Shown here: positions 627 through 30,261 of the stretch, piece after piece
Layout of the letters: each line of letters starts with the position of its first letter
Numbering within the stretch: position 1 is the first letter of the stretch
DNA from: an uncultured Bacilli bacterium
Lineage (GTDB): Bacteria > Bacillota_I > Bacilli_A > RF39 > UBA660
Direction: 5' to 3'
Assembly: GCA_947630055.1 (NCBI GenBank)
Contig: CANRGA010000009.1
Coordinates: 1-37,528 of the forward strand
Length of the DNA stretch: 37,528 nt
Program-made: the position numbers and the translations under genes
The notes under the pieces: generated by a model
Told to the model about the DNA's origin: nothing
Databases searched by the model: none
What the model saw: only the letters and a program-made list of their open reading frames with translations

Positions 627-1568
627 TTATTTAAAACCTAGTTGAGTTCGATATTCAACTGGGTTTTTATATTGAAGTGCATATGATGGTCTAAAATTAT
701 TATTATCCCATACAATATCATCAATAAACTCTTGAACTGTGTTATAATTATTTATGTCAAAATCAATATACATTTCTTTCTTAATCCAGCCATTTTTTGA
801 TTCGATAACTGGATTATCTGTTGGTGTACCAGCTCTAGACATTGATCTGGTAACTGTGTAAGAATTAAATATATTGTTAAATGACACTGAGGAATATACT
901 GCTCCTTGATCTGTGTGAACGATTGTTTCGAGGTCTTTATATCCTCTTTTTATTTTGTTATTTAACATACTTTTCAAAGCTTCACGATGATTTAAAACAC
1001 CATTTCCACACATAGAATCTCTTACATCATACCCAACTATTTCATTGTTAAAAACATCTAAATAGAATGTCCAATCATATTTCTTTTTTTTAAAGTAAAA
1101 TGAAGTTGTATCTGAAACAATTTTTTCAAATGGTCTTGTAGTTTTCCAATTATATCCGATTAAATTTTCATACTTAACTGATTCTTCTCCAGGTCTTTTA
1201 TATTTATAATGCTTTGCTTTTGATTTTATTTTTAGTATTTTACATACTTTATGTACTAAATTATCACTTACTATCCATCCTGTTTCATCTATTATTATTT
1301 TTCTTATTCTGTGATAACCATAGCTAGGTTTTCTTTTATGTATATCTTGAATCAAAATTCCTAAATCTTTTCTATTTATTTCATACCTATTTAAAATATT
1401 TTTATTTTTTAACCATTTATAATATCCTGATCTTGACACTTTCATTATTAAACATAATGATTTTACATTATATTTTTTGCTTAATAATTCAATTATTTCA
1501 AATTTTACTTGTGTTATTTCGTGAATTTTACAATTGTACCATCTCCTTTCATTAGGTATCCTTTTTTT
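627..1568 (-). CDS. IS3-family transposase OrfB (DDE integrase domain)
   Basis: This frame encodes the catalytic part of the transposase. HTH_21-like sequence (SRSGYYKW, SYGYHRIRK) is followed by an rve integrase core with acidic residues in SDTTSF, HTDQG and NPVIESKNGW, matching the D, D and E of the DDE triad. The first ATG is at 1445, but the frame is open upstream and encodes typical OrfB N-terminal sequence (ERRWYNCKIHEITQVKFE). The functional protein is therefore most likely an OrfAB fusion of about 411 residues made by -1 frameshifting on the A7 run at 1562-1568, where the coordinates given here begin. No truncation is seen. Confidence 0.9.
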   Translation of the reverse strand, partial: KKRIPNERRWYNCKIHEITQVKFEIIELLSKKYNVKSLCLIMKVSRSGYYKWLKNKNILNRYEINRKDLGILIQDIHKRKPSYGYHRIRKIIIDETGWIVSDNLVHKVCKILKIKSKAKHYKYKRPGEESVKYENLIGYNWKTTRPFEKIVSDTTSFYFKKKKYDWTFYLDVFNNEIVGYDVRDSMCGNGVLNHREALKSMLNNKIKRGYKDLETIVHTDQGAVYSSVSFNNIFNSYTVTRSMSRAGTPTDNPVIESKNGWIKKEMYIDFDINNYNTVQEFIDDIVWDNNNFRPSYALQYKNPVEYRTQLGFK

Positions 1569-1861
1569 AATAATTCATTCTCAATTCTTAATTTCATATT
1601 TTCATATTCTAATTGTTCTTCTTTCGTTAAGTCCTTTTTATTTGAGTATTTACTTAATGGATTTCCTGGTTTCTTTTTGTTTTTTAATCCTTCCATACCA
1701 TTTTCTCGATATTTTTTAACCCAAGCATAAAGTAATCCAGAATTAATTCCTATTTCTTTAGAATATGTCCAAGCACCTTTTTCCATTTTTAACAATGGTT
1801 CAATTATTTTATATTTTTCTTCTGCTGTCCATTGTTTAAATTTTTGACCCTTTGTTGCCAT
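1514..1861 (-). CDS. IS3-family transposase OrfA (helix-turn-helix)
   Basis: OrfA is the 115-residue DNA-binding partner of the IS3 transposase. It has an N-terminal helix-turn-helix (FKQWTAEEKYKIIEPLL, then EIGINSGLLYAWVKKY) and a C-terminal charged helix (EEQLEYENMKLRIENELLKK), the usual leucine-zipper-like dimerisation segment. The KK of ELLKKG is encoded on a run of seven A residues where ribosomes can slip into the orfB frame. A Shine-Dalgarno-like AAGGAGATGGTGAA lies just before the ATG. Confidence 0.88.
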   Translation of the reverse strand: MATKGQKFKQWTAEEKYKIIEPLLKMEKGAWTYSKEIGINSGLLYAWVKKYRENGMEGLKNKKKPGNPLSKYSNKKDLTKEEQLEYENMKLRIENELLKKGYLMKGDGTIVKFTK

Positions 1862-19954: not shown

Positions 19955-19968
19955 ATTTCCCGGGAAAT
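19955..19968. promoter_or_regulatory. Noc-binding site (recR-bofA)
   Basis: ATTTCCCGGGAAAT, identical to the B. subtilis Noc-binding consensus, within an 18-bp perfect palindrome (19953-19970). It occupies the small gap between recR and bofA. The consensus is established; binding here is inferred. Confidence 0.85.
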
Positions 19969-22951: not shown

Positions 22952-22972
22952 TTTGCATTCTCCATTAAAAAA

Positions 22973-23043
22973 GCACACACAAATAGTGATCGATGTGGCT
23001 GCTGTCTTCCAACTCTGACCAATTTACGATATATTTGTTGTGC
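22973..23043 (-). ncRNA. ffs: Signal recognition particle RNA, short 4.5S type
   Basis: The minus strand shows the SRP domain-IV core GGTCAGAGTTGGAAGACAGC followed by AGCC: a GGAA tetraloop on a GUU/GAC stem and the asymmetric loop bound by Ffh. The outer helix is formed by GCACA-ACAAATA at the 5' end and TATTTGT-G-TGTGC at the 3' end, followed directly by T6, which also makes the 3' end a terminator. At about 71 bases it lacks the Alu domain of the roughly 270-base B. subtilis RNA. It is next to tadA-dnaX, the B. subtilis scr neighbourhood. Confidence 0.93.
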
Positions 23044-23049
23044 AAACTA

Positions 23050-23078
23050 ATATTATCATAATTTATCTTTTATTGCAA
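23050..23078 (-). promoter_or_regulatory. SRP RNA promoter
   Basis: On the minus strand TTGCAA (23073-23078), a 17-base spacer and TAATAT (23050-23055), with the RNA start about seven bases further at the G of GCACA. The -35 abuts, and by two bases overlaps, a 26-bp palindrome containing a Noc-type site. Confidence 0.75.
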
Positions 23079-23082
23079 AAAT

Positions 23083-23096
23083 ATTTCCCGGGAAAT
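23083..23096. promoter_or_regulatory. Noc-binding site (left of origin cluster)
   Basis: ATTTCCCGGGAAAT, inside a perfect 26-bp palindrome (23077-23102). It is the outer left member of the cluster Noc site-parS-parS-Noc site. Confidence 0.87.
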
Positions 23097-23106
23097 ATTT
23101 TTCTAA

Positions 23107-23122
23107 TGTTTCACGTGAAACA
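23107..23122. promoter_or_regulatory. parS centromere site 1
   Basis: TGTTTCACGTGAAACA matches the bacterial parS consensus (the ParB/Spo0J loading site) and is embedded in a 22-bp palindrome (23104-23125). ParB/Spo0J and Soj are not in the window; in B. subtilis they lie beyond jag. Confidence 0.93.
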
Positions 23123-23269
23123 TTAATAACATTTTATAAATAAATTTAGTAATTTGAAATTAATGATATTGATAATTTGCTTTTGAAATATACTTAAATT
23201 AATATATTTTATATTTTAGAAAAATTTTTTTATTTCTATATGAAATATTGATATATCTTTATTTTTTAT
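23123..23269. other. AT-rich spacer between the two parS sites
   Basis: This 147-base stretch is almost entirely A and T. I see no coding frame, RNA gene or good promoter. With its flanks (22979-23339) it forms the longest unbroken gene-free segment on the left arm apart from the SRP RNA. Confidence 0.6.
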
Positions 23270-23285
23270 GTTTCACGTGAAACAT
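23270..23285. promoter_or_regulatory. parS centromere site 2
   Basis: TGTTTCACGTGAAACA, a second perfect copy 163 bp (centre to centre) from parS site 1, toward gyrA. Confidence 0.93.
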
Positions 23286-23305
23286 TGAAATTTGATTTTA
23301 AATTA

Positions 23306-23319
23306 TTTCCCGGGAAATA
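23306..23319. promoter_or_regulatory. Noc-binding site (right of origin cluster)
   Basis: ATTTCCCGGGAAAT within a perfect 32-bp palindrome (23297-23328), the longest of the four. It immediately follows the gyrA terminator and mirrors the arrangement on the other side of the parS pair. Confidence 0.87.
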
Positions 23320-23328
23320 ATTTAAAAA

Positions 23329-23351
23329 GATGCTAGTTATTAATTAGCATC
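23329..23351 (-). terminator. gyrA terminator
   Basis: On the minus strand GATGCTA, a 9-base loop that includes the gyrA stop, TAGCATC and then TTTT. The 7-bp stem overlaps the end of gyrA. The T tract is short but merges into the AT-rich palindrome beyond. Confidence 0.7.
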
Positions 23352-25844
23352 TTCTTCTGTGTTTTGATTAGATTCAATAGAATCATTATTTTCATGAGAT
23401 AATTTTTCATTTTCACTGCTTTCTTCTTCACTTTTATCAACAACACTAATTGTTGCTACTAATTGATTATCTCTTAATGAAATTAATCTTAATCCTTGAG
23501 TAACACGACCTAATATAGAAATTTGATCAACAGGAAGTTTTATAGTTATACCAGCATTTGTCATAATTACAACAGCTTTATCATCATCTACAACTTTAGC
23601 TGCAACTAAATTACCATTCTTTTCTGTAACATTTAGAGCAAGAACACCTTTACTTCCACGCTTAGTTTGTCTAAAATCACAAACTTTTGTACGTTTACCA
23701 TAACCCTTCTCTGTTACTAATAGAATTATTGCATCATCGTTGACAACTTCACAACAGATACAAGATCCACCATCAAGATTAATACCTTTAACCCCTGTTG
23801 CAGTTCTACCCATACTTCTGATTTCACTTTCAGCAAATTTAACCATTCGGCCACGATCACTACCAAGTAATATAATATTATCACCAGTAGTTTTCTTAAC
23901 ATCAATTAATTCATCATTTTCATTTAAATTAATACAAATTTTACCAGAAGTTCTTATATTTTCAAACTCAGTTAATAGTGTTTTCTTAACAATACCTTTT
24001 CTCGTAGCAAATAATAAATATTTATGTTCATCATTTTTACTAATCTTAATAACAGAATTTATTTTTTCATCTTTTTCAATATTTAATAAATTAATAACAG
24101 GAATTCCCTTAGATTGACGACTAAATTCTGGTATTTCATAACCTTTAATACGATAAACTTTACCTTTATTAGTAAAGAACATAATATAATCATGAGTTGA
24201 TAAATTAATTAAGTGTTCAACATAATCTTCATCATTAGTAGTAAGTCCTTTAACACCGACTCCACCACGATTTTGAACTCTAAATGTATCATTTGTTGTT
24301 CTCTTAATATAACCTTTATTTGTTAATACCACCATAACATCTTCTTCAGGTATTAAAGATTCATCTTCAATATATTCAATTGCGGTCATATCTATTTTTG
24401 TACGACGATCTATAGCATATTTATCTTTAATTTCTAGAAGTTCGTCACGAATAATAGCTAAAATTTTCTCACGAGATGCTAAAATAGCTTTATATTCTTC
24501 AATTTTTTGTAATAAATCTTTTAATTCTTCTTCTATTTTAGCTCTTTCTAGACCTGTTAAACGACGAAGTTTTAATTCTAAGATAGCATCAGCTTGAACA
24601 TCTGTTAAGCCGTATTTCTTCATTAAAGTTTCTTTGGCTATAACATCTGTTTCTGATTCACGAATTATTTTAATAAAATCATCTAGATTATCTAGAGCAA
24701 TTTTATATCCTTCTAAGATATGTACTCTTTTTTCAGCTTTATCTAGATCATATCTAGTTCTTCTAATAATTACTTCTTCTTGATAATTAATATATTTTGA
24801 AATAATATCTTTTAATCCTAAAGTTCTCGGAACTTTATTATCAATCATTAAGAAAATGATACCATAACTTGTTTGAAATTGCGTATGCTTATATAAATTG
24901 TTAAGTACTACTTGTGGATTTGCTTCCTTTTTTAAAGTAATTGTGATTTTCAAACCATCTTTTAAATCTAGATGATAATCAGCAATACCATCAATTATTT
25001 TGTTATGAACAAGTTCAGCAACTTTATCCTTAAGTTCAGTAAGATTTACGCCATATGGTACTTCATCAATAATGATATAATTTTTACCATTTTTTTCTTC
25101 AATCGTGGCTTTACTACGAATAGTTATCGTGCCTCTTCCAGTTTCATAAGCCTTTTTAATACCACTATTACCTAAAATAATACCACCAGTTGGAAAATCT
25201 GGACCCTTAATATATTGCATTAAGCCTGCTGTATCAATTTCTGGGTTATCAATGTAAGCTACACAGCCATCTATAACTTCACCTAAATTATGAGGTGGAA
25301 TATTAGTAGCCATACCAACAGCAATACCCATTGTTCCACTAACTAAGATATTTGGAAATCTTGAAGGTAATACTTCAGGTTCTTTTTCAGATTCATCAAA
25401 GTTTGGTAAGAAATTAACCGTATCTTTGTTGATATCTCTTAATAATTCTAAAGAAATTTTAGCAAGTCTTGCTTCTGTATAACGAGATGCTGCTGGTCTT
25501 GGAATTGAGATATTACCAAAGTTACCATGACCATCTACAAGTGTATGGGTAAAGTTAAAATCTTGAGCAAGTCTAACCATCGCATCATAAATACTTGAAT
25601 CACCATGTGGATGATATTTACCCATAACATCACCAACAATACGGGCTGACTTACGATGTGGTTTGTCTGGAGTATATCCTGATTCATACATTGACCATAA
25701 AATACGACGATGTACTGGTTTTAAACCATCTCGTAAATCTGGTACTGCTCTTGACATAATAACACTGACCGAATAATCAATAAATGAATTTTTTATTTCT
25801 GGTACTATGTTATTTTCAATTATTTTATCCCTTTCTTGATTCAT
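23340..25844 (-). CDS. gyrA: DNA gyrase subunit A
   Basis: GyrA is the DNA breakage-reunion subunit of gyrase. The 834-residue protein has the quinolone-region sequence HPHGDSSIYDAMVRLAQ, the active-site tyrosine in AASRYTEARL, the SRFPNILVSG block and a C-terminal six-bladed wrapping domain. The place of the GyrA box reads VQNRGGVGVKGL, a weak version of QRRGGRG. An acidic tail (SEEESSENEKLSHENNDSIE) ends the protein. It starts 11 bases after gyrB with AGGAGG. The gyrB-gyrA pairing beside the origin supports GyrA over ParC. Confidence 0.97.
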   Translation of the reverse strand: MNQERDKIIENNIVPEIKNSFIDYSVSVIMSRAVPDLRDGLKPVHRRILWSMYESGYTPDKPHRKSARIVGDVMGKYHPHGDSSIYDAMVRLAQDFNFTHTLVDGHGNFGNISIPRPAASRYTEARLAKISLELLRDINKDTVNFLPNFDESEKEPEVLPSRFPNILVSGTMGIAVGMATNIPPHNLGEVIDGCVAYIDNPEIDTAGLMQYIKGPDFPTGGIILGNSGIKKAYETGRGTITIRSKATIEEKNGKNYIIIDEVPYGVNLTELKDKVAELVHNKIIDGIADYHLDLKDGLKITITLKKEANPQVVLNNLYKHTQFQTSYGIIFLMIDNKVPRTLGLKDIISKYINYQEEVIIRRTRYDLDKAEKRVHILEGYKIALDNLDDFIKIIRESETDVIAKETLMKKYGLTDVQADAILELKLRRLTGLERAKIEEELKDLLQKIEEYKAILASREKILAIIRDELLEIKDKYAIDRRTKIDMTAIEYIEDESLIPEEDVMVVLTNKGYIKRTTNDTFRVQNRGGVGVKGLTTNDEDYVEHLINLSTHDYIMFFTNKGKVYRIKGYEIPEFSRQSKGIPVINLLNIEKDEKINSVIKISKNDEHKYLLFATRKGIVKKTLLTEFENIRTSGKICINLNENDELIDVKKTTGDNIILLGSDRGRMVKFAESEIRSMGRTATGVKGINLDGGSCICCEVVNDDAIILLVTEKGYGKRTKVCDFRQTKRGSKGVLALNVTEKNGNLVAAKVVDDDKAVVIMTNAGITIKLPVDQISILGRVTQGLRLISLRDNQLVATISVVDKSEEESSENEKLSHENNDSIESNQNTEEDAN

Positions 25845-29472: not shown

Positions 29473-29486
29473 ATTTCCCGGGAAAT
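29473..29486. promoter_or_regulatory. Noc-binding site (upstream of comK)
   Basis: ATTTCCCGGGAAAT in a 16-bp perfect palindrome (29472-29487), placed in the gap between the unknown gene and comK, about 65 bases before the comK start codon. Confidence 0.85.
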
Positions 29487-29490
29487 ATTT

Positions 29491-30237
29491 TTATCTGCTT
29501 TTACAATGTTCTAATGCGTTTATAACACGATATTCTTCTTCAAAATTAGTAATAAATTTTATCATTTCTGGAGTAAGACCTATATTTAATAAAGCTTGAA
29601 TATAATTTTCTATATCTATATTATTTAATTCATTTGTTATAAACAAATTATTTTTTTCAATTAACTTAACTACTCTATATAATATATTAGCAGGTATCAT
29701 ATCAAGATTCTTTTTAGATATATAACCACTATTATACAAGAAACATAAATTTTCATAAGGAATTAATTTAGCATATCTATCTTTATCTCTATCTAAAAAT
29801 TCTTGATAATCTTTTTTAACACTATCAACTGATTTTTTATAATAATCTAACATTTGGAATTCTTGATAAATTGCACTTACTAATTCCTTAGTAGTACAAT
29901 GAAATTCAATAATTATTTTTTTACCACCATCTTCTAAATTAACTGTATCTGCTTCTTTTATATTTCCTAAATTATAACTTGTTAAAAAATTACTAATATA
30001 CGGATAAATTTCATCATAACGATAAGTATTAAAATTAAAATAATCATTTTCTTTTGTATTTTTAAATTTATAATAGTAAGAATTCCAATGATTTATTAAT
30101 TCTTCTAAAAATCTTTTATATTCATTTCTTTCTATTAAATAATTAGTATCATATTTTTCCATTTTTAATAATTCAAAATTATAAGAAGAAGCATTTTTAA
30201 CATTATGTATTTCTTGATTTAAACTATTTTTAGACAT
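29491..30237 (-). CDS. Hypothetical protein, about 248 aa, between dnaN and comK
   Basis: I do not recognise this protein. It is soluble and mostly helical by composition, rich in Tyr, Asn, Lys and Glu, with no membrane segment or signal. Distinct stretches are FLEELINHWNSYYYKFK, a central strand region KKIIIEFHCTTKELVSAI, and helical repeats toward the C-terminus ending NALEHCKSR. The ATG at 30237 is chosen because GGGAG precedes it; a TTG lies three codons upstream. It follows dnaN closely and is probably co-transcribed with it. It takes the place of yaaA in B. subtilis but has no S4-domain resemblance. Confidence 0.85.
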   Translation of the reverse strand: MSKNSLNQEIHNVKNASSYNFELLKMEKYDTNYLIERNEYKRFLEELINHWNSYYYKFKNTKENDYFNFNTYRYDEIYPYISNFLTSYNLGNIKEADTVNLEDGGKKIIIEFHCTTKELVSAIYQEFQMLDYYKKSVDSVKKDYQEFLDRDKDRYAKLIPYENLCFLYNSGYISKKNLDMIPANILYRVVKLIEKNNLFITNELNNIDIENYIQALLNIGLTPEMIKFITNFEEEYRVINALEHCKSR

Positions 30238-30261
30238 TTTTACCAAAACTCCCTTCTAATT

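Follow-up and report, generated by a model that had tools for sequence, protein, structure and literature searches.

Noc is thought to have derived from ParB and to have become an inhibitor of cell division by way of scattered binding sites and a membrane helix. The change of specificity from parS to the Noc-binding site (NBS) is brought about by Q173 and R201 together with a lysine at position 179 or 184 (Jalal et al., PMC7383237). In Bacillus subtilis, Noc requires an N-terminal amphipathic helix, in which F5, R7, F8 and F9 are important and which was present in every Noc homologue examined in that study (Adams et al., PMC4331003). The NBS of Staphylococcus aureus fall into 41 major loci across the origin-proximal chromosome (PMC5540599), and Spo0J and Noc of B. 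subtilis jointly affect Z-ring timing (PMC6852036).

Here, we analyzed a stretch of 37,528 nucleotides (the window) from the genome of an uncultured Bacilli bacterium, in which NBS and parS sites share one intergenic gap beside gyrA. The Noc-NBS system of the corresponding family resembles those of B. subtilis and S. aureus in its 14-bp site, its Q173/K179/R201 readout, its ParB/CTPase fold and the placement of noc by rsmG in the origin region. However, the NBS of those bacteria are scattered and their Noc carries the N-terminal amphipathic helix (PMC4331003), whereas here the window genome has four NBS, located near the origin, NBS are paired with parS, and Noc has a long acidic linker and no N-terminal helix. 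Similarly to the ParABS (Spo0J-parS) systems of Bacillota, perfect parS sites are found near the origin, ParA and ParB are encoded in one operon, and SMC is present; unlike in those systems, parS was found in the window genome in two copies only, between the SRP RNA gene/tadA and gyrA, and is interspersed, at phased distances, with binding sites for another member of the ParB family. A further parallel could be drawn with plasmid RK2, in which KorB, a ParB-family sliding clamp, works together with a second DNA-bound protein, KorA (PMC11790492). The two cases might share a logic whereby a DNA-bound protein stops or reshapes a sliding ParB-family clamp. KorA is not a ParB-family clamp; here, by contrast, both partners would be clamps, and the interaction between them is putative. 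In the open literature searched, we found no description of NBS-parS pairing, of a helix-free Noc or of NBS restricted to the origin, an absence that in itself is weak evidence.

ParB and Noc sites in the window and in the genome

The 252-bp gap with the two parS sites is bounded by gyrA and by the SRP RNA gene, which overlaps the start of tadA, and is located 8-10 kb from dnaA (Table 1). The initial annotation, made on the window alone, had listed four sites here, all of which are real and perfect, although its second NBS and second parS were each placed one base too high. Its location of the cluster is borne out by the Rfam match and the position of gyrA, and the 26-bp and 32-bp palindromes around the NBS were recovered, as were the two centre-to-centre distances. 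Two further perfect NBS of the window, the third and fourth in Table 1, were missing from its list.

Table 1. Sites, genes and other open reading frames (ORFs) of the window
Feature	Position	Strand	Remarks
NBS ATTTCCCGGGAAAT, perfect	23083-23096	.	within 26-bp palindrome 23077-23102
parS TGTTTCACGTGAAACA, perfect	23107-23122	.	within 22-bp palindrome 23104-23125; 25 bp centre-to-centre with left NBS
parS TGTTTCACGTGAAACA, perfect	23269-23284	.	35 bp centre-to-centre with right NBS
NBS ATTTCCCGGGAAAT, perfect	23305-23318	.	within 32-bp palindrome 23296-23327; after gyrA terminator-like hairpin 23327-23353
Third NBS, perfect	19955-19968	.	between recR and holB; 3.1 kb from the cluster
Fourth NBS, perfect	29473-29486	.	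beside 3' end of ORF 29491-30246 (between recF and dnaN); 6.2 kb from the cluster
Bacterial small SRP RNA	22967-23047	-	left border of the gap; Rfam RF00169, 47.9 bits
gyrA	23340-25844	-	right border of the gap; anchor gene for family comparison
dnaA	31511-32896	-	marker of the origin region
ORF, 542 aa	33232-34860	+	repeat-like by eye; between dnaA and rnpA, the presumed replication origin
ORF, 272 aa	12873-13691	+	opposite strand; DNA-damage-inducible protein D-like by eye; inserted between spoVT and mfd
Two ORFs	627-1861	-	resemble an IS3-type transposase pair; adjoin clpP

The genome assembly consists of 1,194,517 bases (1.19 Mb) in 60 contigs and is 90% complete. Allowing for up to 2 mismatches, the NBS 14-mer occurs at 4 places in the whole assembly, all of them perfect and all within 9.5 kb near dnaA, whereas its reversed control pattern has 0 matches, so that these matches are not attributable to chance. 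Every NBS of this genome is no more than about 13 kb away from dnaA, and the same search of the 1.19 Mb yielded no scattered degenerate NBS outside the origin; thus, a distribution of many NBS across the chromosome outside ter does not apply here. The 14-mer core of parS (at most 1 mismatch) has 2 matches, both in the gyrA gap: as in a ParB-parS centromere, the two perfect copies are near the origin, with none elsewhere in the assembly. Altogether, the genome-wide search that had been proposed along with the initial annotation returned one parB, one noc, 4 NBS and 2 parS. The genome does encode Noc, and the palindrome is neither randomly placed nor unconserved among relatives.

ParB and Noc proteins

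Only two ParB_N genes were identified in the genome, namely, parB, downstream of parA on contig 10, and noc, directly after mnmG-rsmG on contig 49 (1471-2748 of locus L008), the same neighborhood as that of noc in B. subtilis. SMC and FtsZ are encoded as well; MinC was looked for in this genome and not found. The nearest solved structures are those of Noc (7nfu, 7ng0, 7ol9) for the noc product and that of Spo0J (6sdk) for ParB. Against the NCBIfam family nucleoid_noc (TIGR04285), Noc scores 275 bits, below the cut-off of 315, and this is still its best family. At the specificity positions, Noc carries Q-K-S-R (Q173, K179, R201), in line with the Q-K-x-R found in all 36 family Noc examined, and ParB carries R-L-N-S (R173, S201), i.e., is of the parS type. 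The DNA-reading residues of Noc predict NBS binding and, given the specificity residues and nearest structures of the two proteins, the NBS and parS sites can be assigned with good confidence to Noc and ParB, respectively, as their predicted ligands. The motifs AGERR and ENVQR-type (VENVQR), read in the protein sequences, predict CTP-clamp activity.

The N-terminal membrane-targeting helix is absent from 36 of the 36 family Noc examined. Their reading frame opens approximately 14 residues ahead of the conserved IIPNRFQPR, too short a stretch to accommodate the helix; a GGGG-type ribosome site precedes the start codon, and stop codons are present shortly upstream in nearly all 36. Because the helix is consistently missing, genome-wide, membrane-based nucleoid occlusion by family Noc is unlikely. 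This bears on the initial description of the gap as a segregation/nucleoid-occlusion locus. The concept of a compound ParB/Noc loading locus holds, since both proteins are encoded and NBS and parS form specific pairs that recur throughout the family; the nucleoid-occlusion half finds no support, given the lack of the helix and the confinement of NBS to the origin region as opposed to the whole nucleoid.

The long disordered linker of family Noc contains a conserved NKFFNFLEDE-like motif (NKFFNFLEDExxNM). The signature [KR]FF is present in 23 of the 36 linkers, against 0.7 expected in shuffles, and the hydrophobic moment of the motif is 0.49, compared with 0.43 for residues 1-11 of B. subtilis Noc. 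In character, the linker motif resembles the N-terminal membrane helix of the B. subtilis protein (SFSRFFGL). It may be that a membrane or partner motif was relocated to the linker, which would restore a membrane role.

Pairing of the sites across the family

Matches to the compound motif NBS-N2-32-parS were obtained in more than 112 GTDB genome stretches, almost all from Bacilli/Mollicutes-type metagenome assemblies. Given that, in a sample of the class, 12 of 54 genomes of the same family and 0 of 341 from other families contained the exact compound pattern, we do not claim breadth outside the family. Within it, the exact 12-mer core of the NBS is present in 118 of 145 genomes and the reversed control in 0.

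For a set unselected for the motif, we took gyrA as the anchor in 145 genomes of the family, which represent 144 genera, fetched the 3' flanks and added the earlier loci, which resulted in 122 genomes (about one per genus). In the gyrA-dnaX interval, parS (at most 1 mismatch) was found in 107 of these, NBS in 65, and both in 55. With one NBS taken per genome, 30.5 of 55 are located within 50 bp of a parS, compared with 17.4 +/- 3.3 when NBS are placed at random anywhere within the respective non-coding interval (a value that 0 of 2000 trials reached the observed one in), and NBS and parS are closer than 22 bp in only 1 of 113 cases in the gyrA-anchored set, against 8.8% expected. This larger set supersedes a permutation test on 18 loci chosen for their NBS and with both borders, in which the closeness was not above chance (p 0.16-0.29). 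Thus, the comparison with relatives suggested at the outset revealed a pairing of ParB and Noc sites that is kept family-wide. The pairing is not obligatory, because half of the family gyrA gaps hold parS without NBS (at most 1 mismatch); some NBS-parS pairs are more than 100 bp apart. The relatives are not independent of one another, and their metagenome assemblies break at NBS/parS repeats.

The occurrence of NBS follows that of Noc. In genomes of 90% completeness or more, NBS were recorded in 93 of the 106 that have a Noc-level match and in 2 of the 7 that have none (p=0.001); to count as Noc, the best match had to exceed the ParB level clearly. In 39 NBS-bearing loci of relatives, 72 of the 74 exact NBS are found in loci with origin-region genes, including single sites elsewhere near the origin, inside dnaX and between yabB and pth, jag and mnmE, rsmG and noc, and gyrB and recF. 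In the gyrA-anchored set, the NBS inside dnaX falls within a variable linker part of the gene, where it encodes either ISREI-type peptides (29 cases) or FPGN (5 cases), i.e., is read in two frames, which, along with the differing peptide contexts, argues for selection on the DNA.

Several additional observations were made on these sites. The dnaX-embedded NBS, seen in approximately 30 family genomes (e.g., loci L193, L195, L206, L229 and L261), is located ~1.0-1.2 kb from the gene start; in the window genome, an NBS is found just after recR instead. In three genomes (L134, L145 and L151), rsmG contains an exact NBS a short distance ahead of noc, a site that could serve noc autoregulation. A high-GC Streptomyces contig (L104) was set aside as probably an unrelated row of variant parS: positions 2529-2579 (~51 bp) contain a parS, a GTTTCCCGGGAAAC-like site, which is a palindrome similar to parS with CCCGGG at its core, and another parS, with spacings of 16 and 20 bp, unlike those of the family.

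Order and spacing

The mirror-image order emphasized in the initial annotation is present in the window but is one of many in relatives, among which we found (N, NBS; P, parS) NPP, NPPPPN', N'NPNPN, NNPPPNN and long strict N-P-N-P arrays. Given these other orders and the mild excess of loci with NBS at both ends (9 of 30 genomes versus 4.9 expected), we reject the mirror order as a generally conserved trait. What is conserved is how far apart NBS and parS lie within single pairs. Switches between N and P number 151, compared with 127 +/- 6 in shuffled order (p 0.0002), a count to which tandem arrays contribute. Such strictly alternating NBS/parS arrays reach about a dozen units (L042, L043, L078, L087 and L115), and their sizes are underestimated because many assembly contigs end inside them.

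For the 67 NBS-parS spacings of the unselected set, de-duplicated within genomes, a period of 10.6 bp fits best. A mean vector of 0.335 was obtained at 10.5 bp (p 0.0003-0.0014 relative to jittered spacings with the envelope kept; about 0.007-0.009 when the period scan is taken into account), whereas parS-parS spacings from the same loci display no period at 10.5 bp (p 0.41). When the range is cut to 20-52 or 15-60 bp, the phasing is weaker, with p about 0.03 at 10.5 bp and a best period of 8.5-8.8, and the signal of the unselected set taken alone is therefore moderate. In the motif-selected set, 184 spacings with non-homologous linkers are concentrated at 25-27, 35-37 and 45 bp (R 0.30, p<1/3000); this set, from which similar linkers were removed, and the gyrA-anchored set share genomes. 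Both spacings of the window fall within the two main peaks. The phasing is a statistical property (mean vector about 0.3) among related genomes, although the linkers were de-duplicated.

Discussion

The identity of the sites is strongly established. As to their role, we put at roughly even chances the possibility that the 252-bp gap is a centromere built as a two-clamp loading site for ParB and Noc. ParB would load at the two parS and the Noc-type ParB paralogue at the two NBS 25 and 35 bp away, both as open dimers that would slide as CTP clamps (PMC8429893). Given that the 25-bp spacing leaves 9 bp between two 16-bp footprints, the two dimers could be bound simultaneously in a set rotation, at about 2.4 and 3.4 turns; on CTP, both clamps would close and slide over one shared origin-proximal stretch of a few kilobases. 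Under this scenario, family Noc would no longer be a genome-wide, membrane-recruited division inhibitor but a second origin-bound clamp that helps, limits, shapes or positions the ParB/ParA/SMC complex. ParB and Noc would be functionally coupled at the paired sites, through joint occupancy and mutual contact or blocking, with segregation or origin organization, rather than division control, as the output. More tentatively, at somewhat less than even chances, we extend this proposal to the family as a whole, in the form of a centromere of two CTP-clamp proteins at face-phased paired sites, with Noc now an origin-bound partner or boundary of ParB. Because the genome encodes FtsZ and the search for MinC gave no match, family Noc may nevertheless have a division role.

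The main rival to the two-clamp centromere is a membrane tether via the linker motif of Noc, whereby this aromatic amphipathic motif, relocated from the N terminus, would recruit DNA to the membrane, either keeping the Z ring off the origin, as an origin-limited form of nucleoid occlusion, or anchoring the origin itself. The excess of [KR]FF in 23 of 36 linkers, the hydrophobic moment (0.49 versus 0.43), the presence of FtsZ with MinC not found, and the joint action of Spo0J and Noc against early Z rings in B. subtilis (PMC6852036) are all compatible with a tether. However, 13 of the 36 Noc lack the motif, which, moreover, is internal and followed by acidic residues, with membrane binding being putative, so we regard this explanation as unlikely. 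Similarly doubtful is independent co-residence, in which parS and NBS both need to be close to the origin, the gyrA-tadA gap is among the few long gaps available, and the two proteins load without interacting. Such a scenario accommodates the single NBS elsewhere in the origin region (dnaX, yabB-pth, jag-mnmE, rsmG-noc and gyrB-recF) and the chance-level closeness in the first small set, but not the larger unselected set, in which NBS are nearer to parS than they would be if scattered randomly over that gap, with a lower limit near 22 bp, nor the helical phasing that is missing from parS-parS pairs.

Control of replication initiation, with origin-proximal NBS enabling Noc to restrain DnaA, has a precedent in S. 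aureus, where Noc limits initiation and a minor site is located beside dnaA (PMC5540599), and would fit the proximity of all NBS of the window genome to dnaA (about 13 kb). Still, the NBS are clustered around parS rather than dnaA, and there is none between dnaA and rnpA in the window, which renders this option quite improbable. Finally, the palindromes could be RNA-level elements, that is, terminators or hairpins of the flanking genes, considering that the one after gyrA can be folded into a 12-bp RNA hairpin. This reading, to which we assign next to no probability, was rejected: gyrA already has a terminator-like hairpin (23327-23353), and the NBS occurs inside dnaX in two frames, depends on the presence of Noc and is found only 4 times in the window genome.

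The proposed two-clamp centromere has implications for the history of Noc. The family possesses Noc specificity without the scattered sites or the helix, and its NBS are interleaved with parS at the origin, a state that could either precede those gains or reverse them, which makes the ParB-to-Noc history testable. The phased pairs are also a natural, ready-made substrate for two different sliding clamps loading side by side. If the proposal is correct, Noc of a whole gut-bacterial family would have switched from inhibiting division genome-wide to serving as a partner or boundary of ParB at the origin. In this large uncultured family, Noc seems to be part of the origin segregation complex.
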